The notes under the pieces: model-generated
Seen by the model: the letters and a program-made list of their open reading frames with translations, nothing else
What the model was told of the DNA's origin: nothing
Databases searched by the model: none
NCBI RefSeq assembly: GCF_013373365.1
Contig: NZ_CP035925.1
Location: forward strand, 3,782,001 to 3,846,000
DNA from: Lentibacillus sp. CBA3610
GTDB lineage: Bacteria; Bacillota; Bacilli; Bacillales; Amphibacillaceae
Direction of reading: 5' to 3'
DNA: 64,000 nucleotides
Translations under genes and position numbers: made by a program
In this document: positions 1,212-31,142 of the stretch, piece after piece
How the letters are laid out: each line of letters begins with the position of its first letter
How positions within the stretch are numbered: position 1 is the stretch's first letter

Positions 1212-1224
1212 AAGGATGGTTACG

Positions 1225-3153
1225 ATGACAGTACAGACAAAACAATCAGGCAAACCAAAACCACCGGAACTGGATAAAGATTTTCTGACAGCGATCCAAC
1301 CGCAAGGTGGTATTCGTTTTAAAGACAAAACCATTAAAAAAGGAGATGGTTATGAAGCGTGTATTCATGTTTTTGAGTATCCGTCCAGGGTCGATGTGTT
1401 ATGGCTCGATAAAATCATGGCCATGTATGATGTGACCGTTGTAACAGACGTCGCAACAATGGACCAGGATGAGACGGTGAGTGCGATTAATAAAAGTATG
1501 GTGGAACAGGATGTCCGGTTCAGGAGCTCCAAGCATGAATCGGAACGAATGGATGCGCAACGCGGTTATCAGGAGATGGAAGACTTATACAGGCAAATAA
1601 GTGAAATGGGGGAGGTCATTAAGTTAGTGCATATTCGTTTATTTGTGGCGTCACCGACCATATGGGAACTGGATAAAAAAGTGGAGCGAACCATGTCCAA
1701 ATTACAGTCATTCGGGTTTAAAGGCCAAATCTTTTTGAATGAAACTTACTGGGAATGGCAGTCTTTATTCCTTCCTTATGAACAGCAGCTGGCTTTTCCA
1801 AACAAACGGGAAGGAAAAGGCATGCCGGCTTTAACACTCGCATCAGGTCTGCCTTATCATTTCTCGGAATTAAATGATCGTACCGGAAGTTATTTGGGAA
1901 CATCGTTCACCGGAGGGAACGTACTGTTTGATCTCTTTCATAAGGATAAAATGAGACGCTTTTTTAATGCGGTGGTTGTTGGGAAAATGGGTGCCGGTAA
2001 GTCAACCACGCTTAAAAAATTATTGATGGATAATGAAGCACGTGGAAACTTTATTCGCGGTTTTGATGTAACGGGTGAATTTAAGACACTTGTTCAGTCC
2101 GTGAATGGACACACAATCAGTCTCGATGGCAGTGATGGTGTCATCAATCCACTGCAAATCTTTCGTACAGAAGATAATAGCCATCCGGAAAAAAATGAAG
2201 AAATCAGTTTTATGCAGCACATATCCAAGGTGGCAACCTTTTATATGTTTCTGGCTGGTAACCCTTCCTCTGAGGAAATCGAAGAATTCAAGAAAGTGTT
2301 GCGACTATTTTATGATTCACTCGGCTTCACGGATAAAATGCATACAACAGGTATTACATCACTGGCTAATGAGGACTATCCGATTTTCAGTGATTTTTTA
2401 ATGTTCATTCGTGATCAACTCTATGACAATACTGAGAAGCGAATCATTCGTTCAGAACTGTCATCTACAAGAGTTAAGCGACTCGAAAAAATTGAATTGG
2501 TGATTGATAATCTGGTGAACAGTTTTTCGTATTTGTTTAATGGTCATACAACGATTCCTGACATTACGAATGAACAAGTGATTTTCTTTTCGATTCGTAA
2601 TTTAACAGGGTTAGAAAAAAGTGTGTTCAATGCTCAGATGTTTAACGCTTTGAACTTAATTTGGGATAACTTAATACAGATTGGATCATTACAAAAACAG
2701 AAAATGTATGACGATGAAGCGTTTGATGCTGATGAAGCGACACGTTTTCTGGTCATGATTGATGAAGCGCATCGACTGGTTAATTCGGAAAACATGCTGG
2801 CGGTTAAGTTTTTAACGGACTTTGCACGAGAAGCACGGAAGTATTTCGGTGGCCTCATCCTGGCCAGTCAATCCATCCGTGATTTTGTGCCAGACCACTC
2901 CGACACGGATACGGTTACCAAAATACGGACGTTATTTGAACTGACCCAATATAAATTTGTGATGCAGCAGGATGCCAACTCATTGGATACATTGCGAACC
3001 GTTTTTGAGGGACAATTGACGGATAGTGAATTGGAACATGTGCCGCAACTACAACAAGGGGAATGTTTATTGAGTATTAGTGGTGTTGGCAACTTAATGC
3101 TTTCCATTGAAGCATCGGACGAAGAGTTGCATCTGTTTGAGGGGGGCTTGTAA
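1225..3153 (+). CDS. traE: TraE/VirB4-type conjugative transfer ATPase
   Basis: A 642-residue cytosolic ATPase that powers assembly or substrate movement through the conjugation channel. The Walker A loop GKMGAGKST is at about residues 253-261 and the Walker B/DEAH-like motif VMIDEAH at about 510-516. A downstream Q-rich segment (LILASQSIRDF) is typical of VirB4/TraE proteins. The N-terminal 230 residues form the VirB4-specific domain. AAAGGA sits 8 bases before the ATG at 1225; an upstream ATG at 1216 overlaps that site and is less likely. The stop codon shares its last base with the next start (TAATG), so translation is coupled. Length matches the pSK41 TraE class. Confidence 0.9.
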   Translation: MTVQTKQSGKPKPPELDKDFLTAIQPQGGIRFKDKTIKKGDGYEACIHVFEYPSRVDVLWLDKIMAMYDVTVVTDVATMDQDETVSAINKSMVEQDVRFRSSKHESERMDAQRGYQEMEDLYRQISEMGEVIKLVHIRLFVASPTIWELDKKVERTMSKLQSFGFKGQIFLNETYWEWQSLFLPYEQQLAFPNKREGKGMPALTLASGLPYHFSELNDRTGSYLGTSFTGGNVLFDLFHKDKMRRFFNAVVVGKMGAGKSTTLKKLLMDNEARGNFIRGFDVTGEFKTLVQSVNGHTISLDGSDGVINPLQIFRTEDNSHPEKNEEISFMQHISKVATFYMFLAGNPSSEEIEEFKKVLRLFYDSLGFTDKMHTTGITSLANEDYPIFSDFLMFIRDQLYDNTEKRIIRSELSSTRVKRLEKIELVIDNLVNSFSYLFNGHTTIPDITNEQVIFFSIRNLTGLEKSVFNAQMFNALNLIWDNLIQIGSLQKQKMYDDEAFDADEATRFLVMIDEAHRLVNSENMLAVKFLTDFAREARKYFGGLILASQSIRDFVPDHSDTDTVTKIRTLFELTQYKFVMQQDANSLDTLRTVFEGQLTDSELEHVPQLQQGECLLSISGVGNLMLSIEASDEELHLFEGGL

Positions 3154-3833
3154 TGGAAAAACGGGTTCTTTATAAGTTTACATTCCTCATCATTGTCGCT
3201 TTGTTAATCATAGCCATGTATGTCTGGAAATGGACAACCGATGATGAAGAAAAACAAAATCCGGAAGATTTATTCGATGAATCACAGCAAGAAACAGAGC
3301 AGCCGCCAACGCTTCAGGAAGACAAAATTGATGAAGTATTAGGTGCTAAACCAGATTCAAATGCTGAAGATGAAACACAAAATGCTATAAACAATAACGG
3401 TAATCAACAAACAATGGGAGACCAGCATGAAGCCACATATCAAAATAAATTTGGTGATCAAGCAGTCACCAGTGCCAAGGAGCAAGCGAAACAAGGGCTT
3501 GCTCTTTATTTATCGCAAATCGCCGACTGGGATAAATGGGAAGGAGTTGTGACGTCTTCATTTTTGCAGGACATCAAGCAAACTATTCCAACGGTGAAAG
3601 AAGCAAATGTTGAACGGCGTATTGAATCTATTGAACTGTTTGCATCTAATACGTCACAATCCAACAACATGGCATTCGGTGCATTTGCCACATGGCATGT
3701 GACATCAAATGAACGTTTGACCAATCAACGAACGCAGCTTTTTTACCTGACAATGGTGCAACAAAACGATCAATGGCTGATGAACAACATAGAAACCCCT
3801 GATGAAGGCATGGAAGGAAAGAAGGATACATGA
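3153..3833 (+). CDS. TraF-like membrane-anchored conjugation protein
   Basis: A 226-residue protein with a single N-terminal transmembrane helix (about residues 7-24) and a long Asp/Glu/Gln-rich linker to about residue 110. A folded extracytoplasmic C-terminal domain follows (with WDKWEGVVTSSFLQDI and a Trp-rich end), of the NTF2-like/TcpC-like kind seen in channel subunits. The start shares a base with the traE stop, and the end overlaps the next gene by 4 bp (ATGA). Its place after VirB4 corresponds to TraF of pSK41. The topology is seen in the sequence; the domain likeness is a tentative reading. Confidence 0.6.
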   Translation: MEKRVLYKFTFLIIVALLIIAMYVWKWTTDDEEKQNPEDLFDESQQETEQPPTLQEDKIDEVLGAKPDSNAEDETQNAINNNGNQQTMGDQHEATYQNKFGDQAVTSAKEQAKQGLALYLSQIADWDKWEGVVTSSFLQDIKQTIPTVKEANVERRIESIELFASNTSQSNNMAFGAFATWHVTSNERLTNQRTQLFYLTMVQQNDQWLMNNIETPDEGMEGKKDT

Positions 3834-4957
3834 AACATATTTGGGGTGCTGTGAAAGCCATTGGTAAGACAAAAGCGATTGGATGGATGATTGGTCTTGT
3901 TGCAGCGAATATTATTCCTATACTGATTGGTTTAGTTTTAATGAGCATTATGTTTGCCATTATTGGTGCGTTAGGTGGCAGCGTCGACGAACAACATTCC
4001 GAACAAAGTAATCCATCTGCCGGTTATGTATGTTCGGCAACAGGTGAGATTAATCAGGAAAAATGGGATGCTGTTTTTCAGAGTGAAGAGCGCGCGGGAG
4101 CCCTAAAAGGTCATGGCGATGACATTATACAGTTGTCGGAAGAAAAAGGCCTTGATCCTGTTTTATTTGCTGCCATTGCGTTACATGAAACCGCATGGGG
4201 AACATCAAATGCCGTTCAACAAAAAAATAATCCTGGCGGATTGATGAATCCGGATGGCAGCGGACTTTTTTCTTTTCCAACATTGAAGGAAGGATTGGCG
4301 TCTATGTCTAAAACATTATATAACCGCATCAAAGTCGATGGTTTGGTGACGATTGAACAATTGGGAAGTGTTTACGCACCAGTTGGTGCAGATAACGATC
4401 CGAATAATTTAAACGAACATTGGGTGCCAACGACCAAAGATATTGTTCAAGAGTTTGGTGGTTTAACCATGAATTGTGAACCATCGGACCAACCGGATCT
4501 GGAACTGATTGGCGATAAAGCATGGATATCACCACATACGAAAAATATTACTTCGGGCTTCGGTAATCGGAGCTGTGGTGGCTGTTCCTCGTTTCATGCT
4601 GCCATTGACGTCGCATCGAATGGTATTCATGGGACACCAATCACAGCATTTGCGGATGGTGAAATTGTTATCAGTAAAGCAAATGGCACGACGTTTCAAT
4701 CAAGCAGCAGCAACATGGGAACAGGGTATGGCTGGTATGTGGAAATTAAACATGAGGGCGGCTTGCGGACACGATATGCGCACATGATGGAAAAAGGAGA
4801 GCCAGTAGGAACAAAAGTTGAGGCAGGTGATGTCATTGGTAAAGTTGGTTCAACAGGTGCATCTACCGGAGCCCACTTGCATTTTGAAGTGATCATAAAT
4901 GGTGAAAAAGTTGATCCAATGCCGTATGTTAAACCATTTCTAACGGGTAAAAATTAA
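3830..4957 (+). CDS. TraG-like bifunctional cell-wall hydrolase (glucosaminidase-like + M23 endopeptidase)
   Basis: A 375-residue protein that would open peptidoglycan locally for the transfer channel. An N-terminal hydrophobic region (about residues 18-50) anchors it in the membrane. Residues about 100-210 form a glucosaminidase/lysozyme-like domain (ALHETAWGTSNAVQQKNN, with the catalytic-type Glu in LHET). Residues about 235-375 form a LytM/M23 zinc metallopeptidase: HAAID supplies the first His/Asp ligands and HLHFE the last His motif. Several Cys residues (GNRSCGGCSS) sit at the start of the M23 domain. It overlaps the previous gene by 4 bp. A TrsG/TraG hydrolase is found at this position in pSK41/pGO1. 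Confidence 0.85.
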   Translation: MKHIWGAVKAIGKTKAIGWMIGLVAANIIPILIGLVLMSIMFAIIGALGGSVDEQHSEQSNPSAGYVCSATGEINQEKWDAVFQSEERAGALKGHGDDIIQLSEEKGLDPVLFAAIALHETAWGTSNAVQQKNNPGGLMNPDGSGLFSFPTLKEGLASMSKTLYNRIKVDGLVTIEQLGSVYAPVGADNDPNNLNEHWVPTTKDIVQEFGGLTMNCEPSDQPDLELIGDKAWISPHTKNITSGFGNRSCGGCSSFHAAIDVASNGIHGTPITAFADGEIVISKANGTTFQSSSSNMGTGYGWYVEIKHEGGLRTRYAHMMEKGEPVGTKVEAGDVIGKVGSTGASTGAHLHFEVIINGEKVDPMPYVKPFLTGKN

Positions 4958-4979: not shown

Positions 4980-6002
4980 TTGAAAAACAAATTGAATCGC
5001 GGACGTGAAAACAAAACCTATATCAGTCTATTGCTTGTCGCCGGCCTAGCGTTTGGCGTTTTTTTTACGTCCAAAACGTGGATGTATGATGACAGTGCGA
5101 TAGCTCAAACAGCATTTAATGAATCAATTGGCGGGCTTAGTCAAACCACATTAACGCTTCGTGATTGGGAATATAACCCGAATGATGAACTGATGGAGGT
5201 GACATTGGAACGTAACCATACCGGCACAGATGCAGTGGAACCGACATTTTCGTTTTATGCGAAAGAACAAAATGAGAGTCAAAAATACAATGCAGAATTG
5301 GTGTATCAATCCGACAATAACATGATCGTTCAGATTGAAGATGTCCCTGAATCCTTTCAAGTGATTGGGTTATTCGTGAGGGAACATCGTAATCAAAACA
5401 TCCTCAAACAAGAATACAAATCACAAATAGAAAACAAAGGTGGTGAAGCTACGGCGACCGATCAGAACATCCAAGAATCGGATTTACCTGAGCCGGAAGA
5501 AGTCATTATCGTTGGGGATTACCGAAAAATTGATATCAATCAATCATTGGTAACGAAGACAGATAAAGGCTACAAAAAAGAAAGTATTATGGCCGATATG
5601 GAACGTACGAAACAAGGAATCACGACGATTATCGATGAAGATATACCTTTTCAGGAAGAACTGGTGACGACACTTAAAGGAGAAAAAGAATCACTGGAAC
5701 AAGACATGGCATTTGAAACGCAGGGTGAACAAACAGACACAAAACGCGAGATTGAACAAAAGGATAAAGCTATCGAAGACGCGAAAAATGAAATCCAAAA
5801 ACTGAAAAACAAAGTGAAAGAACTCCGGGATAAATATCAAAATCGTGAAGAAAAACTGAATGCATTGACACAAAACAAGGATGACAATAAGCAACAAGAT
5901 AATGACAAAGAGGATGCCGATAATGCGAAAAGGGATAAACAAACTGCCAACAAAAACAAAGAAGATAAGAACAACGAGGACTCCAAAAAGGATAAAAAGT
6001 AG
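4980..6002 (+). CDS. TraH-like membrane protein with long coiled coil
   Basis: A 340-residue protein starting with TTG, with AGGAAGGG about 11 bases upstream. One N-terminal transmembrane segment (about residues 15-31) precedes an extracytoplasmic beta-rich region (to about 165). Residues about 210-305 are strongly heptad-like (EKESLEQDM, KDKAIEDAKNEIQKLKNK), i.e. coiled coil, and a highly charged Lys/Asp/Asn tail ends the protein. It is the last gene of the first transfer transcription unit, before the repeat-rich non-coding region, the place of TraH in the pSK41-like order. Function beyond a structural or membrane-spanning role is not evident. Confidence 0.6.
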   Translation: MKNKLNRGRENKTYISLLLVAGLAFGVFFTSKTWMYDDSAIAQTAFNESIGGLSQTTLTLRDWEYNPNDELMEVTLERNHTGTDAVEPTFSFYAKEQNESQKYNAELVYQSDNNMIVQIEDVPESFQVIGLFVREHRNQNILKQEYKSQIENKGGEATATDQNIQESDLPEPEEVIIVGDYRKIDINQSLVTKTDKGYKKESIMADMERTKQGITTIIDEDIPFQEELVTTLKGEKESLEQDMAFETQGEQTDTKREIEQKDKAIEDAKNEIQKLKNKVKELRDKYQNREEKLNALTQNKDDNKQQDNDKEDADNAKRDKQTANKNKEDKNNEDSKKDKK

Positions 6003-6010
6003 CAGCCAAA

Positions 6011-6079
6011 ACCTATATAAAAGCTATATAGACACCTATATAAAAGCTATATAGACACCTATATAAAAGCTATATAATC
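6011..6079 (+). repeat. Three tandem 23-bp iterons, each holding an inverted repeat
   Basis: Three adjoining copies of a 23-bp unit begin at 6011, 6034 and 6057 (core ACCTATATAAAAGCTATATA, the last copy diverging at its end). Within each, CTATATA and TATATAG form an interrupted palindrome. Arrays like this upstream of ribbon-helix-helix genes are usual operator or partition sites. The array lies between traH and the RHH gene at 6297, so autoregulation of the relaxosome operon or of the tra operon is a reasonable inference. Confidence 0.85.
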
Positions 6080-6104
6080 AGTTGAAAAATTGGTCTTACC
6101 GGAA

Positions 6105-6140
6105 AACTAGGCTCTGCCTAGTTCCCCACCTTGTGTGGGG
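6105..6140 (+). other. Two adjacent hairpins, candidate oriT core
   Basis: The first inverted repeat is AACTAGGC-TCT-GCCTAGTT (6105-6123). The second, CCCCAC-CTTGT-GTGGGG-like, follows directly (6124-6140). Neither is followed by a T-run, so they do not look like terminators. They sit just upstream of the RHH proteins and MobL relaxase, where oriT is normally found in mobilisation modules. Assignment as oriT is inference from position and structure; I do not recognise the nic sequence. Confidence 0.5.
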
Positions 6141-6159
6141 ACATTTTCCCCTTATCCTG

Positions 6160-6187
6160 TTCAATACTAATTGTTCAATACTAATTG
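6160..6187 (+). repeat. Perfect 14-bp tandem duplication
   Basis: TTCAATACTAATTG occurs twice without spacer. It lies between the hairpins and the relaxosome genes and could be a binding site for an accessory DNA-processing protein. Confidence 0.85.
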
Positions 6188-6296
6188 CGATCTCATGAAG
6201 ATGCTCCATTTAGTGAAGGGATTTGCCAAAGAGGGAAGGTATTCACATCCTATTGTGGTGTGAACATGCAGCAAATTAACAGAAAGGAATGATACC

Positions 6297-6620
6297 GTGA
6301 TGGAAATAAAAGTGCGCGATGTAGACACCGGTGCCGTCAAAGTTTTAAATGACGAAGCACGAAAACAAAACGTGTCGCGGAATGAATTGTTAAAACGACA
6401 CATTGAAGATTTAGCACAGTTTAATGGTGTCAAACGTGCAGAAAAAGAATTGGATTCGACATTAAGTCGTGTAGGTGATGCATTAGAGATGACGTACAAT
6501 CGGCTTGACCAATTAGAAAAACAATCCTTGAAAATGTATTTGTTACTAACTACTGTGCTGGATGTTGATCCTGAAGAAGTTGATGATTATTTGGAGAAAG
6601 TATTCAAGATAAACATATAA
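6297..6620 (+). CDS. Ribbon-helix-helix DNA-binding protein (relaxosome accessory or repressor)
   Basis: A 107-residue protein. The N-terminal strand MEIKVRDVDTGAVKVLNDEA, the turn QNVSRNELLKRHIEDLA and the second helix match the ribbon-helix-helix fold (residues about 1-42). A long helical, probably multimerising C-terminal part follows. It starts at GTG 6297 or at the ATG three bases later; AAAGGAA lies about 9 bases upstream. It immediately follows the iterons and hairpins, so it probably binds them, as ArtA-type or MobC-like proteins do. Target and role are inferred. Confidence 0.7.
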   Translation: MMEIKVRDVDTGAVKVLNDEARKQNVSRNELLKRHIEDLAQFNGVKRAEKELDSTLSRVGDALEMTYNRLDQLEKQSLKMYLLLTTVLDVDPEEVDDYLEKVFKINI

Positions 6621-6634: not shown

Positions 6635-7096
6635 ATGAATGAAAAAAAGACAACAAAGAAAGGTTCATACTTTTTGTTAAGTCCAGAAACCAAAGACAAG
6701 ATACAAAGTATTGCAGACGAGAAAAATGTATCACAAGCTGATGTCATTACGGAAGCCATTGATCACTATTATGCAGATCGTAATGAAAAGAATGTTGCGT
6801 TAAAAAATATGATCTCAGATTTAATGGATGAAAAGTTGGCGACCATGCAAGAGAAATTACAGCGTATTCAAGTCACCGGCAATGTGGTTGACCGAGATAC
6901 AAAAATTCTTCTGGAGTTTATGAACCATTATTACTTGATCAATGAATTTAAAGATTTGATTACCACTGAGAAATATAAGACGAATGGGATGCAGCAAGCA
7001 GAGGAACTAATTCAAAAACGTATTCACAAACATCGTCAAAAGAAACTGGATTATGAAAAGCGAAAGGCACAAAAGCAACAAGAAAGTGAGGCATAA
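6635..7096 (+). CDS. Ribbon-helix-helix-type mobilisation accessory protein
   Basis: A 153-residue protein with an AAGGAG ribosome binding site. Residues about 10-45 (SYFLLSPETKDKIQSIADEK, then NVSQADVITEAIDHYY) fit a CopG/RHH-like DNA-binding unit. The rest is alpha-helical with a Lys/Gln-rich C-terminus. It sits between another RHH gene and the relaxase gene, starting 14 bp after the former and ending 3 bp before the latter, which suggests one operon and a part in oriT recognition or relaxase recruitment. No enzymatic motif is seen. Confidence 0.65.
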   Translation: MNEKKTTKKGSYFLLSPETKDKIQSIADEKNVSQADVITEAIDHYYADRNEKNVALKNMISDLMDEKLATMQEKLQRIQVTGNVVDRDTKILLEFMNHYYLINEFKDLITTEKYKTNGMQQAEELIQKRIHKHRQKKLDYEKRKAQKQQESEA

Positions 7097-7099: not shown

Positions 7100-8344
7100 A
7101 TGAGCAGTCCTGCGGTAGTGTTACGAAGCAAATTTGTCACACCTGGCTCCAATACATTTAACGATTATATTAATTATATCGATCGGGAAGATGCCAAGCG
7201 TCATATTCATGTGAACCAGTCATCCAAAGAAACGGATGATTTTGTTGTCTTTCATGACTTCATGGACTATATGGATGACGAAGCAAAACAAGGTGAACTG
7301 TTCACAAAAAATAATGATCAGTTGAATCCGAATGACAAAAAAATCTTGAAGCAACAATTCCAAAAAGCACAACAAAATGAATCACCCATGTGGCAGGATG
7401 TTATTAGTTTTAATAATAAATGGTTGATGGAACAAGGTTTTTATAATCCAAAAACACATACAGTATATGAAGCAAACATGCGGAAGGTTGTCCGTGAAAC
7501 GATGGATACGGTGTTGAAGTCAGAAGGCATGGAAAACTCAGCTGTATGGACAGCATCTTTGCATTATAATACCGACAACATTCATGTCCATATTGCTTCA
7601 ACTGAAACCTATCCAACACGTGAAACAATGGACGTTTTCGATAAGGAAAGTCAAACATGGCGGGAAGAATACCGTGCCAAACGTAAACCCAAGACACTGG
7701 ATAAAATGAAATCCAAAGTGGCCAACATGATTCTGGATAGAACGCATGAACGGAATAAAATTGATGACCTTGTCCGTGGAACCGTTCATCATAAAAAAGA
7801 AAATGGTGTCTCCTTGTCCACTTATCGCCAAACAAAAGAATTATTTCAAGAAGCCATGAATCACCTTCCATCGGATAAGAAACAATGGCGATATGGTTAT
7901 CAATCGATTAATGAAGCAAGACCATATATAGATGACATAACAACGATTTATTTGCAGCAATTTCATCCGGATGATATGGAACAGTTGCATCAACAATTGG
8001 ATGATGAAGTGAACGTGATGAAAGAGATGTACGGTGAAGGGAGTGATTATGAAACGTATAAGCAAACGAAACTGGATGACTTGAAAAAGCGAATGGGTAA
8101 TGCAGTACTGTCTGAGATGCGTGACTATGCGAAAGCGCAAAACAATTTATCGTTTCAGCCAAAACGATTAAATCGGTGGCAATCATTCAATCAACAGCAT
8201 TCATTTACTGATCGACATCAGACAGTTTATGCGTTTAATGCTTCCATGATGAAATTAAGCAAAGCCATGCGTCGAACATTTCATGATTATCAAAAAGACC
8301 GAAACATGCAGGAATTTGACCGAATGATGGATGGCTATGAATAA
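7100..8344 (+). CDS. mobL: MobL-family relaxase
   Basis: A 414-residue DNA strand transferase that would nick oriT and stay bound to the transferred strand. The metal-binding motif reads NTDNIHVHIA, with HVH at residues about 162-164. This is the His-x-His signature of MobL/MOBP-like relaxases in Gram-positive elements. Tyr/Arg-rich segments near the N-terminus (FNDYINYIDRED) are candidates for the catalytic Tyr region. The remaining 220 residues are helical and charged. No helicase or primase domain is fused; the nearby topoisomerase III may supply a DNA-processing function. Confidence 0.85.
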   Translation: MSSPAVVLRSKFVTPGSNTFNDYINYIDREDAKRHIHVNQSSKETDDFVVFHDFMDYMDDEAKQGELFTKNNDQLNPNDKKILKQQFQKAQQNESPMWQDVISFNNKWLMEQGFYNPKTHTVYEANMRKVVRETMDTVLKSEGMENSAVWTASLHYNTDNIHVHIASTETYPTRETMDVFDKESQTWREEYRAKRKPKTLDKMKSKVANMILDRTHERNKIDDLVRGTVHHKKENGVSLSTYRQTKELFQEAMNHLPSDKKQWRYGYQSINEARPYIDDITTIYLQQFHPDDMEQLHQQLDDEVNVMKEMYGEGSDYETYKQTKLDDLKKRMGNAVLSEMRDYAKAQNNLSFQPKRLNRWQSFNQQHSFTDRHQTVYAFNASMMKLSKAMRRTFHDYQKDRNMQEFDRMMDGYE

Positions 8345-11799: not shown

Positions 11800-13596
11800 A
11801 TGGCTAAACGTAAAACATTGGAACAAAAGAAGGAAGAAGTTAAGGGCCTGACTACGAAAATGAATGACGCCATTGATTATTATTTTGAGTCGCCGGGACA
11901 AATGAATGAGTTAATGGCGTTCATGTTGAAGTTTTATCATTATTCACCGAAGAATGCAGCATTGATTCGCAGTCAGTTTGAAGGTGCAGAGGCTGTCGGT
12001 AGCTATAACTTCTGGAAGGATAAAGGATTTCAAGTTCAAAAAGGTGAAAAAGCTCTTAAGGTATTAGTGCCGAATAAAACGGCACCAAAATTCAAAACGG
12101 CTGAGGGCAAGTGGGAAAATATGAAATATGCAACAGAGCAGGAGAAGGGACAGATCTATAAAGGGGAACTTGAGCAACGAAAAAGCCGATTGTATTTTTC
12201 AACTGGCAATGTCTTTGATATAAGTCAGACGAATGCCAAAGAAAGTGATTTGCCGGAAATATTCCCGAATAAATGGATGGAAGGCGATGTTGCCAATTAT
12301 CACACGATGCTGGCGAGTATGCATAGAATAGGCGATAAACTGGATGTCACGATCGGTGAGCCGTTTGATGAACTTGGTGCAGCAAAAGGGGCATTTTATC
12401 ATAGCGTTCATGACAAGAATAATGGCCATATTGGTCTGAACCCTCGAAATGGCGAGCTGCAGAACGTTAAGACATTATTGCATGAACTTGCCCATGCCAA
12501 ACTGCATAATCCAAAGAATGAACATTATCAAGCGATGCCTGCAGAAGAAAAGGAATTTCAGGCGGAAATGACGGCTTATGCGGTAGCATCTTATTTTGAT
12601 ATTGATACAAGTGATTATTCTCTTCGTTACTTGGCCAATTGGACACAGGATAAAGAAATGAAAGATAAAGCCAAACTCTTGGACCATGTTCGTCAAACGG
12701 CTGTTGAATTTATTGATGAAATAGAACCTGATTTGGTAAAAGAACGTGATAAAGAACAAGAGCAAGAAAACGATATGTTGTTACTGGAGTACGGTATGAA
12801 TCAGATTACTGATGTAAAGGAAATATCTTTACAGGAAATGAAGTCATTTGCCAAAGGGAATACAAATGGTGCTGCATTTATTAAAATGCAAGCATCTGAG
12901 AATCTGAGGGATGAAGAGTATCAGAAACAGTTTAATGAAATATTTGCAGGTAAATATACTGTTATCGATAAAGCAATTGATGAACCGCAATTGTTGATTC
13001 AATGGTCGGAAGCACCGGAGTTAAAGGATAACACGATGTACCCTTTTGCAGAGGGAAATGATAAGATGGAAGCATTAGAGGAAAAGTATCAGCAGGAAAC
13101 AGGCTATCGTAAAACACGATACCATGTTGTTCTTCCAGTAAATGAATATTCAACAACGCCAAATATTGTTAGTATATCAGATAGATTGGATATTGGTGAT
13201 GGGGCATATATCCATCCTTATCATCATATTCGAAAAATGGGAGAGATGACAACTGGGCATCAAAAAATATTAGATGATGCTTACCACGATTATCTTATTG
13301 AAACAGAAAAAGAAGAATTAGAGGATTCAAAGATACAACAGCAACCTGAACTGGTCCAAAATAATTATGATGAGATGTTGTATTGGTATGAAATGTGCAA
13401 GCGGCCAGTATCGTTAGGCTGTCAGCCAAACGGGTTTATTGAATTTGATCATGATAAAGGAAAGCATGGAATTGTTGCTTACGATAGGGAGCTGACTGAT
13501 CAAGAATTAAATGATTATGAAATGAAGGAATGGGATCTTAAACAAGGGGAAAAAGACAAGAAAAAGATAAGGAAACTAGAAATGGAGCTACAGTAA
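11800..13596 (+). CDS. ArdC-type antirestriction protein (ssDNA-binding domain + zincin-like peptidase)
   Basis: A 598-residue protein. Residues about 1-150 form an ArdC-like ssDNA-binding domain (YYSPKNAALI-type region, SYNFWKDKGFQVQKGEKAL). Residues about 165-300 form a zincin-like metallopeptidase with HELAH at 228-232 and a downstream EFQAEMTAYAVA helix that may give the third zinc ligand. The C-terminal 280 residues hold one or more unassigned alpha/beta domains. ArdC proteins are carried by conjugative elements and are thought to protect incoming single-stranded DNA from host defences. It is likely expressed with the leading-region genes. Confidence 0.85.
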   Translation: MAKRKTLEQKKEEVKGLTTKMNDAIDYYFESPGQMNELMAFMLKFYHYSPKNAALIRSQFEGAEAVGSYNFWKDKGFQVQKGEKALKVLVPNKTAPKFKTAEGKWENMKYATEQEKGQIYKGELEQRKSRLYFSTGNVFDISQTNAKESDLPEIFPNKWMEGDVANYHTMLASMHRIGDKLDVTIGEPFDELGAAKGAFYHSVHDKNNGHIGLNPRNGELQNVKTLLHELAHAKLHNPKNEHYQAMPAEEKEFQAEMTAYAVASYFDIDTSDYSLRYLANWTQDKEMKDKAKLLDHVRQTAVEFIDEIEPDLVKERDKEQEQENDMLLLEYGMNQITDVKEISLQEMKSFAKGNTNGAAFIKMQASENLRDEEYQKQFNEIFAGKYTVIDKAIDEPQLLIQWSEAPELKDNTMYPFAEGNDKMEALEEKYQQETGYRKTRYHVVLPVNEYSTTPNIVSISDRLDIGDGAYIHPYHHIRKMGEMTTGHQKILDDAYHDYLIETEKEELEDSKIQQQPELVQNNYDEMLYWYEMCKRPVSLGCQPNGFIEFDHDKGKHGIVAYDRELTDQELNDYEMKEWDLKQGEKDKKKIRKLEMELQ

Positions 13597-14269
13597 ATTC
13601 CAAATTGTTACTATTACATTTTGATTCGATTGCTAATCAAGAGAAATATATTAGGAAAACGACTTACCATATTCGGTAAAGAGAAGGGATAAGGCTTGCT
13701 AAAATAAACGTCGAACAAAAATATCATGTTAAACGTGTAGGGGTGAATCATTCCGTTGGACTATAAGGGAAGCAAAGATGGAGGTTAGCATGATTTGTGA
13801 CATCACAAATGTGTCGGAGTATTTTTTTGTATCGTCAGCTGAATGAAACATCCTGGAGTTAATTGGTTTATTAATTTATCCAGCTTCTGATATGGGGAAC
13901 TGTGGATCTTTTAGGTGTGGGTAAGATGTTAAGCGAAAACACAGCCTTGTTTACAGACTTTTCATCCTTGTTTTCCGACATCCAGATACCTACAGGCATG
14001 ACATTTTCGTTATTTATTTTATTCCTTTCAAGTGCACTCCTCTCAACACTCCTGTCGTCTCTGTAAATACAAAAAAGACCGTCACCTATCACAAATAGAT
14101 TAACGACGGTCTAATGTAGAGAGGTGGGCATGAAACGGATTCCACTAAGATTTATTTGTATTTTTTCTTATATATTGAGATTCTTAGGCACTGAGGATAA
14201 AATTAAAAATAGTTGAAGTTGGTAAGGGTTTAGTGAATTAAATACCACATTTTATTGGGAGGAGAACTA
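13597..14269. other. Gene-poor stretch between ardC and the type III R-M system
   Basis: No convincing gene. It holds an 18-bp interrupted palindrome (13793-13810) and a minus-strand terminator-like hairpin (GACCGTC ... GACGGTC with T-run, about 14072-14112). A 73-codon minus-strand frame (13871-14092) starts inside that hairpin and has no ribosome binding site. The stretch probably marks the join between the conjugative module and the restriction island. Confidence 0.5.
13793..13810. promoter_or_regulatory. Palindrome ATTTGTGA-CA-TCACAAAT
   Basis: Perfect 8-bp arms around a 2-bp centre, resembling a dimeric regulator operator (Crp/Fnr-like TGTGA/TCACA halves). It shares TGTGACA with the longer palindrome at 20764-20789, on the other side of the restriction-modification genes. 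Confidence 0.5.
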
Positions 14270-14945
14270 ATGAGAGACAACAGCAATTTAAAAGAACTAG
14301 TTTTTGAAGCTCTTAGGGCAGATGAACGACTGTGGGATGATGAAGGAAAGGAATTGAATCAGAGACTTTTAATTGACTTAATAGATAGCTACGATAAAAA
14401 AGTAATAAATATCTTGTTGAGCCATGATGGAACGAGGAATAAATTTTTCGTACAAATAAATGGTGCATATGTTTTTAAAACAAATGATTTTAAGTTTTTT
14501 ATGGAAGAAAATAAAATAGATAATTCGTATACCGATTTTATTAACCGGATTGGTCTTTCCGATAATCAGGAGTTTATCAATAGTCGTGGTGAAGTTGTTG
14601 TTAACTTTCCATATAAAGATTGTATTTTAGCTGGTGGGCAAGCTACTGAAGAAGGGGAAGACATATATTTTGGGTATGAAGGTGAAAAAGTAAAAACAGT
14701 TAAAGGTGAAAAAGTTGTTCAACCAGCAGGTTTTAGAGAAAAACAAGCAAAAAGAAATGAAGTGTTTTTTAATGAGGTCTTAGCTCATGATGAGATTGAC
14801 AGGCTCTTAGATGAAAAAGCATTTGTTAATTGGAGTAGATTCACTACAGATGGAAAATCAGAAATAACAGAATTTAGAAGAGACGAAAACGGCTATTTGA
14901 AAGACAATATTGTGATAAAAGGAAATAATTTAATTGCGTTACACT

Positions 14946-16516
14946 GAATCAATTTCATAATTGCTCTTTTTAAAAACACAAAGACCTGCAGAATTTTTAA
15001 AATGGATTTTTTAAAATTCCTTTAAACAGGTTGTTATGCAGCCTGTTGTAGGTTTAGCTCTGCATTAATACGGTCTGCAGCTAATTTTGAAGCATTATAC
15101 ATCAAAGTAACGATGTCAAAATGGACTTTAGCACGTTCACCTGTGCGATTACGAACATTGTTGAGCTGGAAGAACTCCTTTAAATACGCATTAACGCGTT
15201 CCACTGCTGAACGACGGTTGTAAATAGCTTTCCAGGCTTTGGAGCCACGAGCCGGCGCTGTGTATCGTCTGAGGTCTTTGGTAATTTTCATCTTGAACAC
15301 TTTTTGGCAAATACCTTCATTGGCTAATGGGCAATCTTTGCATTCCTTCGGGCTCGTGTACTTCAGTGTTTCATATTTGGCATCGTAACTATCATAACGA
15401 TACGAATACTCACGGAAACAAGTCGGGGCAAAATACTTATCAAACCCAATTGGTTCCGATTCATTCCGTTTATTATAGGCAATAATGGATTGCTGCCCCA
15501 TTTGGTACACTTGCTGGTAAATCGGTTCAAAATCATAACCGGCATCCATCGTCTGATAACGCAGATCTGAAAGAGGCAAGCTTTCATCCATCCCTTTCAG
15601 TAAAGGAATCGCAGCTTTTCCGTCGTTCAGATTTGCGGATGAAAAAAGGGATTGTAAAATATATTGACTCGATGCACCGACCGCCAGATGGCCTTTATAG
15701 CCAAACCAGAATTCATTTTTGCCTTTACTGTTTTTCTTGACGCCCCATTGGGGATCCCGGGGAACTTCATCACGCAGTTCGGTTAAGGAAACGCCCAATT
15801 GGGCTTCAATTCGCTTGTCATAAAGCGGCATATTAGCTTCTTTTTCAGCTTGTTCCTTTAGCCATTGGTCACGCTCTTCCTTGGATTTGCGGCCGCGCTT
15901 TTTAGGCTCCGGCTTTGGCTTTTCTTCTTTAGGTGGTGCCTGATCGCGTGCTTCGAAGTGGGTTGCATCGATGGCGACTGTGTCATCAACGATAAAACCT
16001 TCCGCAATGGCTTGAAGGGCAACTTTTTCCTGTGCCTTTTCTAAAATGTTTGATTCGCTCAGCTTCGCAAAAAGCCGGGAATAAGAAGCTTCAGATGGGA
16101 TTGGATCAGAAACAAGAAATCCGCAATTCAGTTTAAAGGCAATATCGTCATTTAGACGTTTGACCAGGTCTTTTATCGTTGGGATACGCTCGATGTATCG
16201 AATGAAAATGGAAATAATCATCGCTGCATAATTCAGCTCTTTCGGCGCACCAAGTCGCGATTTTTTGGTCACTTCATGGTAAATCGAATCCAAATCAATC
16301 GCGGAAATGATTGCCTCATATTTTTGGGTAGGTTCCATTTCATATAATTCTTGGATGCCAAATAAGCTCGTTTGTCGTATAATGGTCATAGGAAGTTCCT
16401 CCAGTCTTTTTGGGACGTTTTGGTCGACTACCATTATACAAGATTTGGGGAGGTACTTCCTTTTTTATGCTTTTGAGCCCTTGCGGCAGAAGGACTAAGA
16501 ATTATGAAATTCGTTC
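14946..16516 (-). mobile_element. Complete 1571-bp insertion sequence with 18-bp imperfect inverted repeats and 5-bp target duplication
   Basis: The ends are GAATCAATTTCATAATTG (14946-14963) and, in reverse complement, GAACGAATTTCATAATTC (16499-16516), with 15 of 18 positions matching. ACACT flanks both sides (14941-14945 and 16517-16521) as the target duplication. One transposase gene fills the element on the minus strand. The clean ends and duplication point to a recent insertion. Confidence 0.93.
15034..16389 (-). CDS. DDE transposase of the IS inside mod
   Basis: A 451-residue transposase. A DUF772-like N-terminal domain (begins MTIIRQTSLFGIQELYEMEP) is followed by a DDE catalytic core with DDTVAIDATHFEARD (first Asp), YQTMDAGYD (second Asp) and, near the C-terminus, RRSAVERVNAYLKEFF (Glu). 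A Cys-rich segment (CKDCPLANEGICQK) lies between. The start at 16389 has GGAGGA 7 bases upstream; a longer frame to 16434 lacks one. The protein looks intact. It belongs to the IS4/IS5/IS1182-like superfamily; I cannot assign the exact family. Confidence 0.88.
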   Translation of the reverse strand: MTIIRQTSLFGIQELYEMEPTQKYEAIISAIDLDSIYHEVTKKSRLGAPKELNYAAMIISIFIRYIERIPTIKDLVKRLNDDIAFKLNCGFLVSDPIPSEASYSRLFAKLSESNILEKAQEKVALQAIAEGFIVDDTVAIDATHFEARDQAPPKEEKPKPEPKKRGRKSKEERDQWLKEQAEKEANMPLYDKRIEAQLGVSLTELRDEVPRDPQWGVKKNSKGKNEFWFGYKGHLAVGASSQYILQSLFSSANLNDGKAAIPLLKGMDESLPLSDLRYQTMDAGYDFEPIYQQVYQMGQQSIIAYNKRNESEPIGFDKYFAPTCFREYSYRYDSYDAKYETLKYTSPKECKDCPLANEGICQKVFKMKITKDLRRYTAPARGSKAWKAIYNRRSAVERVNAYLKEFFQLNNVRNRTGERAKVHFDIVTLMYNASKLAADRINAELNLQQAA

Positions 16517-17933
16517 ACACTCATTAAAAAAAGAATTCTCTAGCAGGATAAAACTTTGCTATATTGATGTACCTTTTAATACTAGTTCAGACAGTTTTGC
16601 TTATAACGATAGGTTTAATCATTCAACTTGGCTTACATTCATGAAAAATCGTTTAGAAGTGACCAAAACACTAATGAAAAAAGATGGATTAATATTTGTC
16701 CATTGTGATAAGAATGAAGATGCCTATTTAAAAGTATTAATGGATGAAATTTTTGATCGGGAAAATTATATAACATCAATTTCTGTAAAATCTAATTCAA
16801 TTTCTGGCAACAAAACAAGATTTAAAAATAAAACTATATTAAAAAATAAAGATACCATATTAGTGTATAAAGGGGATGGGGAAGTCACTATTAACCCTCA
16901 GTATACTGAAAAAACGAAGTGGGATACACACTACAATGCCTTTTTAGAAGTTGTAGATGAAGGAAAAAACATTTATAAACCTCGACGTCTGAAGGATGTT
17001 TTAATTGAGAACAGTATTATTGATTCGGCTACTACCATTACTGAGGATTTTATTAACAATAAACTTTTTATGGAATTCTGTATTAAACATAAAAGTCAAA
17101 TTTACCGGTTAGTTAATTCAATTCCAGCTGATATTAAATCGAAAAGTTTAGAGAGCGAAAACAAAGTAATAAAATATAGCGATACAGACGGTAACATTCA
17201 ATATGCCTTAAATGGTAGTAGGATCGCATTTTTATCAGGGGCTGTACAAGAAATAGATGGTTATGAAAAATTAGCCCAACTTTTAGGGGATATGTGGTCA
17301 GATATTGATTTTCAAAACACTCAAAACGAAGGTGGCAAAGGTGTATCCTTCCCTACAGGGAAAAAGCCCGAAAAGCTACTGCAAAGAATCATTGATATGG
17401 CAACAAAAAAAGGTGACATTGTATTAGACTTTTTCATGGGGTCAGCAACAACACAAGCTGTAGCAATGAAGTTAGATCGTCAATTTATTGGTATTGAACA
17501 AATGGATTATATTGAAGATATATCAGTTAAGCGTCTTAATAATGTGATTAATGGTGAAAAAGGCGGGATTTCTAAAGCCGTCAATTGGGATGGTGGTAGA
17601 GATTTCATATATTGTGAACTTGCAAAATGGAACGAATCAGCAAAAGAAAAGATCATCAAATGTGATAACTACAATGAATTAGTGAGTTTGTTTTCTAAGC
17701 TTTGTGAAAAATATTTCTTACATTATAATATTAAAGTTAAAGAATTCCAAGAAAAAATTATAAAAAAAGATGAATTTATAAATCTAACTCTTGATGAGCA
17801 AAAAAAAATGTTTATTCAAATGTTGGATTTAAATCAGATGTATATACACCGAACGGAAATGGAAGATAGTAAATATGGGATTGATGAAAGAGATCAAGAA
17901 TTAACAAAGTTATTTTATGAGGGGGATTAAAAT

Positions 17934-20675
17934 TTGACACAAGATCAAGAGTTATATAAAACCCTTAGCGAAAAGGCGCGGAAATTAAGACTTCCATTTC
18001 CAAAAGTACCTAAATATGTTATAGATAATTTGAAATATGATTTGTTCTACTGGCAAAGAGAAGCATTTGAAAATTTAATAACTTATGAAAACATTAAAGA
18101 AATAAAAAACCCTAACCCCCCAACTCATTTGATGTTCAATATGGCAACTGGAACAGGGAAAACTTTATTAATGGCAGCGTGTATATTATATTATTACGAA
18201 AAGGGTTATAGGCATTTTTTATTCTTTGTAAATCAGAATAATATTGTGGATAAAACTGAGAACAATTTTGTGGAAAGTCAACATCGCAAGTATCTTTTTA
18301 CAAAAAATATAATTGTTAATGACAGAACGATTGATATTAAAAAAGTAAATACTTTTAGCAAACATACGAACGATATTGAGGTAAAGTTTACTACAATACA
18401 AAAACTTTACAACGATATACACGTGGAAAAAGAAAACAATATATTATTGGATGAACTGGATAACAAAAACATTGTTATGTTGGCGGATGAAGCTCATCAT
18501 TTAAACACAAATACCCAACAAAATATTGGTCAAACTGAGTTGGACTTAGAGACTGAGATAACTGGTAAAACAGGGGAAGCTGAGGTGGAGCGTAAAGGTT
18601 GGGAACATACAGTAATAAACTTGTTATTAAATAAAAGAGGAAATTATGATATTAATAATAATATACTATTGGAGTTTACTGCCACTCTACCTGAAGATAA
18701 GCAAGTTGCAGAAAAATATATGGACAAAATCATTTATAAATTTGGTCTAAAGGAATTTCTAGGAGAAGGGTATACGAAGGAAATTAATTTAATTTCGTCC
18801 CATTTTGATAAAAAAGACAGAATCCTTCACGCTCTTCTTTTTAATTGGTATAGAGAAAAAATCGCATTGAAACATTATGGTTTAGGTAATAAAAGCTTAG
18901 CAAACTTTAAGCCAGTGGTGCTATTCAGAAGTAAATCTATTGATGAGTCAAAACAAGACTATGAATATTTTCAGCGCATCCTCAAGGAGTTAACAGTTAG
19001 TGACTTTTCATTTTTAGATGATATAGAGAATAAGATTATTGAAAATAAGAATGCCCATGAAAAGGGGAAATCAAGGACACGAGATGTTTTAGAATATATA
19101 AAACGAGAGAACATAAGCTACTCTCATATAGTTAATTATATTAAACACAATTTTTCTGAACGAAACTGTATTATTACTAATTCTGATAGAAATACTACTA
19201 AAAAAGAGAAAACTGATGACGAACAAGAAAGGTTATTAAATAGCCTTGAAGACAAAGAAAATAATATAAGAGCTATATTTACTGTAAAAAGGCTAACAGA
19301 GGGTTGGGACGTATTAAATTTATTCGACATAGTTAGATTATATCAAGGACAAAATGCTGGTGGTTCATCAAGGAAAACACCAAAAGCTACTATTGAAGAA
19401 AAACAGCTTATAGGTAGAGGCGTTAGGTACTATCCTTTTTCATATAAGAATCACGTTGAAAATAAACGAAAATTTGATGATGAGATGGATAATGAATTGC
19501 GGGTCTTAGAAGAGTTATATTATTATACTTACGATGAAGATTCTCGTTATATCTCTCACCTTAAAGAAGAACTAAGAAAAGATGGTTACATTAAGGATAA
19601 TAAAGTCGAAAAAAGATTTAATCTGAAACCAGAATTTAAAGAAAAACCTTTTTACAATAACACTGTCTTATGGATTAACGAGAAAATCAATAATCCAAAT
19701 CGTAAAAAGAAGTCTTTGGATGACTTAAAGGAAAATTGGTTTTTTGAATGCAAAGTTGCGGGTTTTGAATATACAGAAGAAGAGTTACATTTACAGAAAG
19801 ACAAGGATGTAAGCAGGATAGAGTATCAAGAAAAAACAAATAAGACTCTGAACAAGAACCTTAGTGACTTTGATCGTCAAATCTTCTATAAGGCGATAAA
19901 TATTAAGGCCCAACCAGAAAACTCAATATTTAAGTTTAAAAACTTAAAAACTGAATTAGATATTGATAGTATTGATGATCTATTGAAGGAAGAATTTATG
20001 GGTGGTTTAGATGTCAATATCGTAGTTAATCAAGATTTAGATTTTAAACAAATCTCGAATAAGGAAAAGTTAAAAATACTATCAAAGGTTTTGGATAAAT
20101 TCATGGTGGAAATTAAAGAGTATATTAATCCCTATATAGGCACTGAATTTAAGCCAGTTAAGTTTTATGATGTGTTTGGTAAACCAAAGACAAAAGTTAT
20201 TGAAGAAAATGAGGAATCGGTAAGGATTGCCCAAGAGTTATTTAATGAAGACTGGTACATCCTCAACGATTTTAATGGTACAGATGAAGAAATAGGATTG
20301 ATAAATGAAATAAAAAACACTATTAGCAATCTAAAAATGAATTATCAGGAAGTATATTTGTTAAGGAATGAAGAGGTTTATAAATTATTTGATTTTGATA
20401 CTGGCAGGGGGTTTCAACCAGACTTTATTTTATTGTTAAAGTCTAAAGACAAGAAAAATCAATTTTATCATGTTTTTATTGAACCTAAAGGTAACGGGTT
20501 ATTAGATAAGGATAAATGGAAAAATGACCTATTAAAAGAGATAACTGAAAAGTATTCCACTGAAGGTACTTTGACTTTTGAAACAGATAACTACTCATTA
20601 ATAGGATTGCCGTTATATAATATTAACAATAAACAAGATTTTCGGAATGAATATGAAAAGTTATGGAGATACTAG
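17934..20675 (+). CDS. res: Type III restriction enzyme Res subunit
   Basis: A 913-residue ATP-dependent restriction subunit. Superfamily 2 helicase motifs are present: ATGTGKT at about residues 71-77, ADEAHHLN (DEAH box) at about 184-191, and QLIGRGVRYYPF as motif VI. The C-terminal nuclease domain has QPDF (about 829) and IEPKG (about 850), the PD...E-x-K pattern. It starts with TTG 3 bp after mod, preceded by a G-rich site, so the two genes form one operon. Res normally cuts only in complex with Mod; with mod disrupted the protein is probably inert unless another Mod is present. Confidence 0.93.
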   Translation: MTQDQELYKTLSEKARKLRLPFPKVPKYVIDNLKYDLFYWQREAFENLITYENIKEIKNPNPPTHLMFNMATGTGKTLLMAACILYYYEKGYRHFLFFVNQNNIVDKTENNFVESQHRKYLFTKNIIVNDRTIDIKKVNTFSKHTNDIEVKFTTIQKLYNDIHVEKENNILLDELDNKNIVMLADEAHHLNTNTQQNIGQTELDLETEITGKTGEAEVERKGWEHTVINLLLNKRGNYDINNNILLEFTATLPEDKQVAEKYMDKIIYKFGLKEFLGEGYTKEINLISSHFDKKDRILHALLFNWYREKIALKHYGLGNKSLANFKPVVLFRSKSIDESKQDYEYFQRILKELTVSDFSFLDDIENKIIENKNAHEKGKSRTRDVLEYIKRENISYSHIVNYIKHNFSERNCIITNSDRNTTKKEKTDDEQERLLNSLEDKENNIRAIFTVKRLTEGWDVLNLFDIVRLYQGQNAGGSSRKTPKATIEEKQLIGRGVRYYPFSYKNHVENKRKFDDEMDNELRVLEELYYYTYDEDSRYISHLKEELRKDGYIKDNKVEKRFNLKPEFKEKPFYNNTVLWINEKINNPNRKKKSLDDLKENWFFECKVAGFEYTEEELHLQKDKDVSRIEYQEKTNKTLNKNLSDFDRQIFYKAINIKAQPENSIFKFKNLKTELDIDSIDDLLKEEFMGGLDVNIVVNQDLDFKQISNKEKLKILSKVLDKFMVEIKEYINPYIGTEFKPVKFYDVFGKPKTKVIEENEESVRIAQELFNEDWYILNDFNGTDEEIGLINEIKNTISNLKMNYQEVYLLRNEEVYKLFDFDTGRGFQPDFILLLKSKDKKNQFYHVFIEPKGNGLLDKDKWKNDLLKEITEKYSTEGTLTFETDNYSLIGLPLYNINNKQDFRNEYEKLWRY

Positions 20676-21010: not shown

Positions 21011-22102
21011 TTAGCGGAGGCTTCTCATAAGTTGTCCAAACTTGTGGGAAGCTTCTTTTTTCATTTCTTGCGTGACATGGAGGTACACATCTTTGGTGAT
21101 TTGATCATCCGAATGGCCAAGTCTGTCCATGATTTGTTCTAGTGCGACACCCGCTTCGGCTAAAAGTGACGTGTGCGTATGTCGCAAAGAGTGTGGCGTT
21201 AAGTTTGTATTTAATTCTGCTAGGGAAAGCAGTCGCGCCATTCTGTTTTGAACGGTCTTGATGACAATGGGATAACCATGTTGACGTTCCATTTTTGCGA
21301 AGATGAAGTCCTTGTTATAGTAACCATCCCCTAATTGCTTAATGATTTGATCTTGAACTTCTTTATGCTCCTTCAAAGCGTTGATTATCTCTTCATCCAC
21401 AATAATTTTACGACGTGATTTTTTTGTCTTTGGTGTGACTAGTAGGTATTCCAATGTATTATTATTGGGATTGTAATAGGTCTTGGTGATGCTTATCGTA
21501 TGGTTTACGAAATCGACATCTTTCCACTTGAGGGAAACTAATTCACCAACTCTAATTCCTGTATAGGAAAGAATCAGGAACATCAAGTAATCATGTTCAA
21601 GTCCATAATCCATTGCTGTTTCTAAAAACAATGCAAGTTCCTCTTTTTCAAGGTACTTTGGAATTTCCTCTTCTTTCAGCTGTTCAATCGTTTTCTTATC
21701 TTTTTTGAGATAAGCAAACTCCGTTGGATCCTTTTTGATTAGCTCCATTTCGAGTGCTTTTCGAAAAATCATTCTCCCGGTTCGGTTGATCCCCGACATT
21801 GTGCTATCAGAATAGCCTTGGTCTTTTAAATCAATTAATGCATCCTGATACCTCTTTCTTGTAATGTTTTTTAATTTTAGCCGGGAGAGGTAAGGTAACC
21901 ATTTGCCAATCTCATGTACCCTGACACGAATGGTTCCCGGTTTTACATCTTTTGAATCTTTGTTGATTTTAAGCCACTCATTTGCAAACTCGATAAATGT
22001 TTGGTTCGATTCCTCCACGTACATCCCTTGTTCTACTTCATGAACGAGGGCGGCTGCACCTGATTGAGCTTCTTTCTTTGTTTTAAAACCGCTCCTTACC
22101 TT
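21011..22102 (-). pseudogene. int: Tyrosine recombinase (integrase) lacking its N-terminal arm-binding region
   Basis: From the first ATG (22024) the product is 337 residues. It has a SAM-like core-binding domain (about 1-100) and a complete catalytic domain: Arg in GIRVGELVSLKW, HSLRHTHTS, LGHSDDQ and the nucleophile Tyr in KDVYLHV. The frame stays open upstream to 22102 and encodes RSGFKTKKEAQSGAAALV, the end of the usual AP2-like arm-binding domain. A TAA then interrupts it, and no start or ribosome binding site is found there. The intact protein would be about 380 residues. The catalytic core looks sound, but arm-site binding and so excision may be lost. Confidence 0.75.
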
Positions 22103-24760: not shown

Positions 24761-25627
24761 GGGCGCCGATCGACAAGTTCTGTTATAAGCGCTTTATAGC
24801 GTGAAGTACAGGGGATTATTAATCCTAAACTTACAACGGAGGATGGGAATGAAGGAACCATGTTTCCCGAAACCATCCCGTCAATACTATTGCATGCGTC
24901 ATGTCTGACAGGTCATGGGGTTTGAAGTACAGGTAGATTCGGCAGAACGAAGGCTGGAGCCACTCCATAGGAGAAGGTATGCTAACGGATATGCCGCGCG
25001 GCTGAAAAACTGGATAAGGTGAGAATGTTCTCGCGAAAGGGAACTGACGAACTTCCGAATGTACGGGTCTAAAGTTTGGCCATAAGGAAACTTTATGGGT
25101 CATCCAACGATGGCGTGAGTGGTGTAGAGTAAAAATGCGCCCTCTGAAATACACTATACCGGAGGCGGTATCCAGCTCACAGGCTTATAGGAAGCACCTA
25201 CGTCTAGTATTACTAGCTACGTTGTAAGGGACTTGGAAAGCAAGGAACGTTGGAAACATGGGCTGTCACCCTAACGGTTACTATAAGGTATAGCCGAAGT
25301 GTATTTATCCTTGTGAGGGAAGGGGCATGACTGATGAAACTCCTGTAATGGGAGTGGAGGAATAGCCCCAAGTCTAGCGAATGGAACTGTGGTTTTCCAA
25401 ACGTGCATTGCACCGATCGGGTAGGAATGTGTGATTTTACACAGTGCGAGCTTTCAGGCAAGAGTTTTCTATTTTGGACGGTAGTTTTCCTCTTTTCTGA
25501 AGGTAACGAGGAACTTATCATTTAGTACATTCTGTTAGATGGAGCGCGAAGTGCGGGGAAACTTGCATGCTTTGCGCGGAGCAGGGGAAAAGCTGGAGAT
25601 AACTTCAAACGCTTACCTATTGCTGAC
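24761..25627 (+). mobile_element. ORF-less group II intron derivative (about 870 bp)
   Basis: Long stretches match the ribozyme parts of the intron at 26761-29400: AAACGGGCGC at the 5' side, ACAACGGAGGATGGGAATGA, GTGGTGTAGAGTAAAA, GCCCCAAGTCTAGCGAAT and GATCGGGTAGGAATGTG. Downstream both share GTAACGA.GAACTTAT, a domain-V-like hairpin (about 25541-25580, GGAAAC loop) and AAAAGCTGGAGATAA to the 3' end. Between about 25432 and 25500 a 70-bp spacer replaces the reverse transcriptase gene. The exact 5' boundary is uncertain because no clear GTGYG start was found. It lies in an intergenic region after adaB. Confidence 0.8.
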
Positions 25628-25782
25628 TTTTCCCTAATAAGGATTAGCGCCAATATTGCATCATAGGGCCATACTCTGGAACATTAAGTATCGTACACCA
25701 AAGAAGTTTCACTCAATTGTGCAACATAAACCAAAAACTTATATACTGGTTATTAATTAGAGAGAGAAAAAGGAAGTGCGAT

Positions 25783-31117: not shown

Positions 31118-31142
31118 CCTAGACATGGATAAATGCATGCTT

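Follow-up and report, generated by a model that had tools for sequence, protein, structure and literature searches.

A putative origin of transfer of the pWBG749/pLS20 type upstream of a MobL relaxase gene in Lentibacillus sp. CBA3610

The segment at 6011–6161 of the window (the whole 64,000-nucleotide stretch analyzed here, which lies on one contig of 4.04 Mb) is very probably the origin of transfer (oriT) of an integrated conjugative element, in the form of a variant of the MobL oriTs of the pWBG749/pLS20 type. A sequence-only reading had proposed a candidate oriT at this place, and the proposal is now strongly supported: our comparisons revealed an architecture common to related loci, covariation in its stems, a core conserved across a survey of MobL loci, co-segregation of DNA types with the N-termini of accessory proteins, and plasmids that carry the stems and core without MobL.

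The candidate occupies the gap (6003–6296) that separates aux1 from a transfer-operon ORF (4980–6002, for which a family search gave no match), and the gene order is that of the pLS20 module of B. subtilis: transfer genes, oriT, aux1, aux2, MobL relaxase. The relaxase (7100–8344, plus strand) matches PF18555 (MobL; 2.7e-97, 326.6 bits against a cut-off of 28.5) and the NCBIfam MobP2 model NF041498 (3.6e-124, 414.8 bits against a cut-off of 200), as expected from the earlier recognition of a MobL relaxase downstream. The two proteins encoded between oriT and relaxase, both on the plus strand, had been read as RHH proteins, and their homologies agree: Aux1 (6297–6620) is homologous to SmpO (1.2e-5), and Aux2 (6635–7096) matches the solved Aux2 of pLS20 (4.3e-5). 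In NCBIfam, Aux1 matched a VapB model and Aux2 matched copy-control models, each below cut-off only; a Pfam search found no family in either protein, AlphaFold single-chain models had no strand in Aux1 (pLDDT 77.6) or Aux2 (53.7), and Foldseek with the Aux1 model returned no match at E 0.001. Upstream of the oriT, also on the plus strand, are a VirB4-like ATPase (1216–3153; matches below NCBIfam cut-offs) and an M23 peptidase (3830–4957) that in the family search also matched glucosaminidase weakly and is likely the wall hydrolase of the T4SS.

A tyrosine integrase detected by family search on the minus strand (21011–22024) probably belongs to the same element as the oriT, suggesting that the element is an ICE. 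We considered, and did not adopt, a 17-bp direct repeat (genome position 3757316, window position 22237) as a candidate att site; the repeat is present in one of 11 other genomes of the genus, with shared flanks of at most 25 bases. Elsewhere in the window are a protein with ArdC-N, peptidase M78, LPD25 and DarA_C matches (11800–13596; probably anti-restriction), a methyltransferase-like gene (14255–17930) that by eye appears split by a transposase-like ORF on the opposite strand (15034–16434) and adjoins a helicase-like ORF (17934–20675), five group II intron matches (24825–31219) with a reverse transcriptase ORF at 27432, and, on the minus strand at 57535–57816, a match to BsrG (RF01412), one member of a type I toxin-antitoxin pair.

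Repeats, branched hairpin and core

The segment opens with three accessory repeats of 23 bp (6011–6079), found by repeat search and predicted to be Aux2 sites; the copies (6011–6033, 6034–6056 and 6057–6079) are 100/100/91% matches, and a single 23-mer folded alone forms a 7-bp stem (z -6.5), in keeping with the iterons and internal inverted repeats originally described. Tandem Repeats Finder located five arrays in the 64 kb, the top scores going to the 23-bp array (132) and to one of 14 bp (60). The latter is a perfect pair, as had been stated (6158–6171 and 6172–6185), on the 3' side of the predicted nic, and is private to this copy: each related locus displayed has it once, so that we rejected it as a conserved binding site, and it is probably non-functional. 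Of the three kinds of repeat originally singled out, the 23-bp repeats and the hairpins are typed and co-inherited with the RHH proteins, whereas the 14-bp repeat belongs to this copy only. The pattern of the 23-bp repeats (type a, see below) was matched in 10 of 156 genomes, eight times at MobL oriTs and twice elsewhere (G506 and G540), the latter two matches falling, as judged by eye, within other genes and away from any such oriT.

Folded as a single strand, 6100–6161 adopts a three-way structure (-13.9 kcal/mol, z -4.84, with 0 of 200 shuffles as good) in which an outer stem on the plus strand, IR3 (6101–6149; arms 6101–6106 and 6144–6149), encloses two hairpins, IR1 (6107–6121; arms 6107–6112 and 6116–6121) and IR2 (6123–6141; arms 6123–6129 and 6135–6141). 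Two adjacent hairpins had been noticed before, and fold and covariation bear them out; the outer stem and the core were absent from that description. In two gapless alignments, whose rows were hand-picked for diversity and common spacing, 94.6% of cells were paired and 8 of 14 pairs were changed on both sides (16 rows), or 88.2% and 14 of 19 when the outer stem was included (21 rows). In the larger alignment, IR1 was paired in 100% of cells, and IR3, at 73.8%, was the weakest stem, with all six of its pairs changed on both sides. Pairing and covariation score exceeded those of 500 of 500 shuffles in both alignments, and control versions in which the alignment was slid reached at most 39.3% (16 rows) and 45.6% (21 rows) of cells paired; the number of pair types was no better than in shuffles, 464 and 108 of 500, respectively, being as high.

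Beyond the stems is the core, CTTATCCTGTT (6151–6161, plus strand), which the window contains once, 0.02 occurrences being expected, and which shares 9 of its 11 bases with the published core of pWBG749, CTTATGCTCTT. A list of inverted repeats of at least 10 bases had no entry 3' of it. We surveyed 46 MobL loci, comprising 17 of the 21 places from one MobL search (the fragments L014, L019, L023 and L024 being dropped) and 29 from a second (those with a locus among 47 listed, the window's own aside); four loci found through the core pattern (L072, L102, L104 and L107) stand outside this number. A core with an IR1-like stem was present within about 1.5 kb upstream in 38 of the 46, many of the surveyed loci being near relatives of each other. 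Although both variable positions were left free in the search, 13 cores, including that of the window, had the form CTTATCCTGTT (CCTG), 25 had the form CTTATGCTCTT (GCTC), and none was intermediate; nor did the fetched part of 78 places in a scan of family genomes contain CCTC or GCTG cores with conserved stems. In the other 12 loci from the genus search with a CCTG core, the same block of stems and core stands 5' of the aux genes. The eight loci in which no core was found within ~1.5 kb comprise one whose core is further upstream (L022, the core being that of L107), one truncated by a contig end (L051), a fragment (L066), two long and distantly related loci (L013 and L065) and three full matches without a core (L005, L038 and L039).

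The two bases that distinguish the window core from that of pWBG749 create the motif TATCCTGT (6153–6160, plus strand), which agrees with the MOBP nick consensus (C/T)ATCCTG(C/T) given in PMC3772185, and nic therefore probably falls at 6159|6160 on the plus strand. The change from one core to the other suggests two coordinated substitutions, positions 6 and 9 staying complementary (G..C to C..G), although, since the switch may go back to one event within one clade, contact between these positions is no more than suggested. Among open PMC texts, five listed papers contain the string CTTATCCTGTT, none of them, judging by title, concerned with conjugation, and no paper joining Lentibacillus and relaxase was found among the same texts.

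Accessory proteins and the DNA modules that they track

In 18 loci typed by eye, the accessory repeats were of two types (a, as in the window, CCTATATA...; b, TGTACGCC...) and the IR2 hairpins of four. The repeat types were separated by 9 of 144 gap-free columns of Aux2 (window residues 4, 5, 10–14, 18 and 20, of which 4 and 5 mean little, falling where type-b proteins start), by 2 of 106 columns of Aux1 (101 and 107, both C-terminal) and by 0 of 181 gap-free columns in the first part of the relaxase (17 loci, L107 having no relaxase ORF). Hairpins of the CCCC type, by contrast, were separated from the rest by Aux1 residues 6, 11, 18 and 19, and by no column of Aux2 or of the relaxase part. 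Among 2000 permutations of the labels, which ignore kinship, none reached the Aux2 count, none the count of Aux1 for IR2, and two that of Aux1 for the repeats. Aux1 is thus quite likely to read IR2 and Aux2 is likely to read the 23-bp repeats, a division that fits gel shifts for pLS20, in which Aux2 preferred upstream direct-repeat fragments and Aux1 palindrome fragments (PMC5313138, PMC5675868).

The two modules can be found in different combinations: L015 and L018 join type-b repeats and Aux2 to a CCCC hairpin and its Aux1. On the relaxase tree, repeat type requires six changes (bootstrap 4–6), close to the number for shuffled labels (5.6), and hence seems not to be inherited with the relaxase, although the well-supported branches force only one change; on a tree of the C-terminal part of Aux2 it requires five (4–5). 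IR2 type shows partial clustering, with 5 changes versus 8.2 for shuffled labels. That the C-terminal columns of Aux1 track repeat type and its N-terminus tracks hairpin type suggests a recombination joint inside aux1.

The putative Aux1 site in the right arm of IR2, TGGGGACA (6136–6143), is the counterpart of the published ossB site of SmpO, a protein that has been mapped to ossA and ossB and whose specificity is altered by the substitution F7K (Yui Eto 2021, PMC8136818). Residue 5 of the window Aux1 aligns with SmpO position 7, and across the alignment it appears to obey the published rule. All 25 loci whose ossB reads GATAGC (L021, L040, 13 of L041–L055, L056–L064 and pWBG749; read by eye, with many near copies) have L or F as the aligned residue, and 20 of 22 other loci have K or R, the exceptions being pLS20 (N) and L053 (T). 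A second putative, ossA-like Aux1 site, a weak match (4/8), lies 45 bp upstream of ossB (6091–6098). In 29 oriTs, an 8-mer resembling the locus's own ossB sits at this distance, with a similarity of 5.07/8 to its own ossB against 4.38 to those of others. Among distances of 20–89, 45 bp was the best, a result reached by 1 of 5000 permutations, though, since it was inspection of pLS20 and family-f59 loci that first drew attention to this spacing, the permutation value is not fully independent. In pLS20, the 8-mer at 45 bp is TGGTACCA, which is the published candidate Aux1 site of that plasmid (PMC5313138, PMC5675868).

Relation to known transfer origins

The closest layout is that of the pWBG749-family oriTs of Staphylococcus, which, as described in PMC4652767 and PMC8136818, likewise have accessory repeats, a branched IR1–IR3 hairpin 5' of a core, a typed IR2, an SmpO-like RHH protein, a MobP2 relaxase (30.6% identical to that of the window in pWBG749, where its gene lies beside the core) and mimics on other plasmids. 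Accessory repeats stand upstream of the hairpins in both, with different sequences, and the SmpO-like protein encoded downstream appears, by homology and co-segregation, to match IR2 here as well. The window differs in its core, in having two RHH proteins rather than one between oriT and relaxase, and in an ossA–ossB spacing of 45 bp versus 65–67; it would work like a pWBG749-type oriT but departs from it in exact core and spacing, which makes it a separate variant among MobL/MobP2 oriTs. The initial remark that this was not a described oriT holds for the core string, whereas in layout the segment follows the published oriTs of pWBG749 and pLS20.

With pLS20 the window shares an Aux2 homologue, a relaxase 36% identical to its own, and the ties of Aux2 to upstream direct repeats and of Aux1 to the palindrome; the sequences of repeats, stem and core are different, and the published nic is on the other strand. 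The best plasmid relaxase match in a PLSDB search (53.9%) was that of Bacillus badius pPM400, with the same gene order and similar stems, but with a GCTC core, other repeats and a slightly shifted IR2 register. The MOBP nick regions of RP4 and VirD2 resemble the window in having the TATCCTGT motif 3' of inverted repeats, but belong to another relaxase branch, whereas the window has a branched hairpin and a Gram-positive host.

From these comparisons we infer nicking, its strand, the exact nic, protein binding and transfer as follows. Aux2 would bind the three 23-bp repeats, and Aux1 the site in the right arm of IR2 and probably also its partner 45 bp upstream; together they would recruit the MobL relaxase to the plus strand, folded as a three-way branched hairpin, and the relaxase would cut TTATCCTG|TT at 6159|6160 and lead the strand, aux–rel side first, to the T4SS. 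Tentatively, and as a possibility somewhat short of even, we propose a two-lock oriT in which the RHH pair reads two independently exchangeable modules, the core has switched coordinately, which would connect the Gram-positive MobL core with the classical MOBP nick motif, and the nic is predicted for the whole family, pLS20 included.

Plasmids without MobL and alternative roles of the segment

Stems and core were also found on eight whole plasmids (pPM8, pTM1, p16118, pPL7065, pA38H3, pA30H1, pPM2 and pPP9) in which tblastn with four MobL relaxases gave no match, while the controls pPM400 and pLS20 were matched. Bacillus badius NBPM-293 harbors the MobL plasmid pPM400 together with pPM8 and pPM2. 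MOB-suite typed pPM400 as non-mobilizable despite its MobP2 relaxase, and we therefore did not use its typing to call plasmids relaxase-free; since it typed pTM1 and pPL7065 as MOBV, these two may carry another relaxase. More broadly, a 61-base pPM400 query finds 186 plasmid records (E up to 0.1, irrespective of a MobL of their own), and 1073 plasmid records match the window relaxase; phages had no oriT match and three weak records for the relaxase. Within the genus of the window, genome G005 has no MobL match, and its plasmid of ~26.6 kb, whose assembly is a partial concatemer and which is accompanied by another, highly similar contig, bears two cores of the CCTG form with stems, as well as type-b-like repeats, and no MobL, the only such case among the fetched places in a scan of 159 family genomes. 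A PF03432 relaxase was not found in G005 with a positive control that matched, and PF01076 gave no match in either G005 or its control.

The G005 plasmid bears on the reading of the segment as an operator, at which RHH proteins on the repeats would repress aux1-aux2-rel while transfer starts elsewhere. The repeats do lie directly upstream of aux1, and autoregulation by SmpO is proposed in the Discussion of PMC8136818, but a cassette of other-type repeats, stems and core on a plasmid in a MobL-less genome disfavors a pure operator role, and conservation of the stems and core extends to another family of the class, so that we regard this reading as very unlikely. The lack of a sigma-70-like promoter is a further, though weak, argument against it: neither such sites nor terminator-like ones occur in 5900–6400, with shuffles yielding only 1.4 and 0.5, respectively. 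Operator and oriT roles can, moreover, coexist. It is extremely unlikely that the hairpins instead prime or initiate replication, as a single-strand or plasmid replication origin: the segment is hairpin-rich, is found on small rep-gene plasmids such as pPL7065 and pTM1, and Aux2 has the copy-control matches mentioned above, but the segment precedes aux and relaxase genes in the loci read, no rep family was found among the scanned surrounding proteins, and the corresponding segment of pWBG749 was shown to be an oriT, with nic delimited to 16 bp around the core (O'Brien 2015, PMC4652767).

The same delimitation argues against an oriT nicked outside the core on the opposite strand, a reading motivated by pLS20, in which mapping placed nic at an inverted repeat, on the template strand (PMC5313138, PMC5675868). 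We hold it to be improbable, as the longest invariant run of bases among the compared oriTs is the plus-strand core, here equal to the MOBP nick consensus, and pLS20 itself contains CTTATGCTCTT on the coding strand (27744–27754), some 40 bp ahead of the nic published for the template strand. By aligning the family core with the MOBP nick motif, the CCTG variant predicts a nic at odds with the published pLS20 site; of the coding-strand core of pLS20 and the published nic, one may not be where cleavage occurs.

MobL relaxases are widespread in Bacillota, and the conserved stems and core offer a usable signature for MobL oriTs and hitchhiking plasmids, among which the putative Aux1/Aux2 code would predict which element can mobilize which plasmid. 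Several plasmids bear more than one such site. The G005 plasmid has a GCTC core (L097 position 3375, and copies) roughly 350 bp away from a CCTG oriT, on the other strand; p16118, pA38H3, pA30H1 and pPP9 each have two similar oriTs on opposite strands; and pTM1 (6882 and 7068) and pPL7065 (82 and 268) have two tandem cores, pPM400-like stems going with one and pLS20-like stems with the other, as if able to use two helpers.
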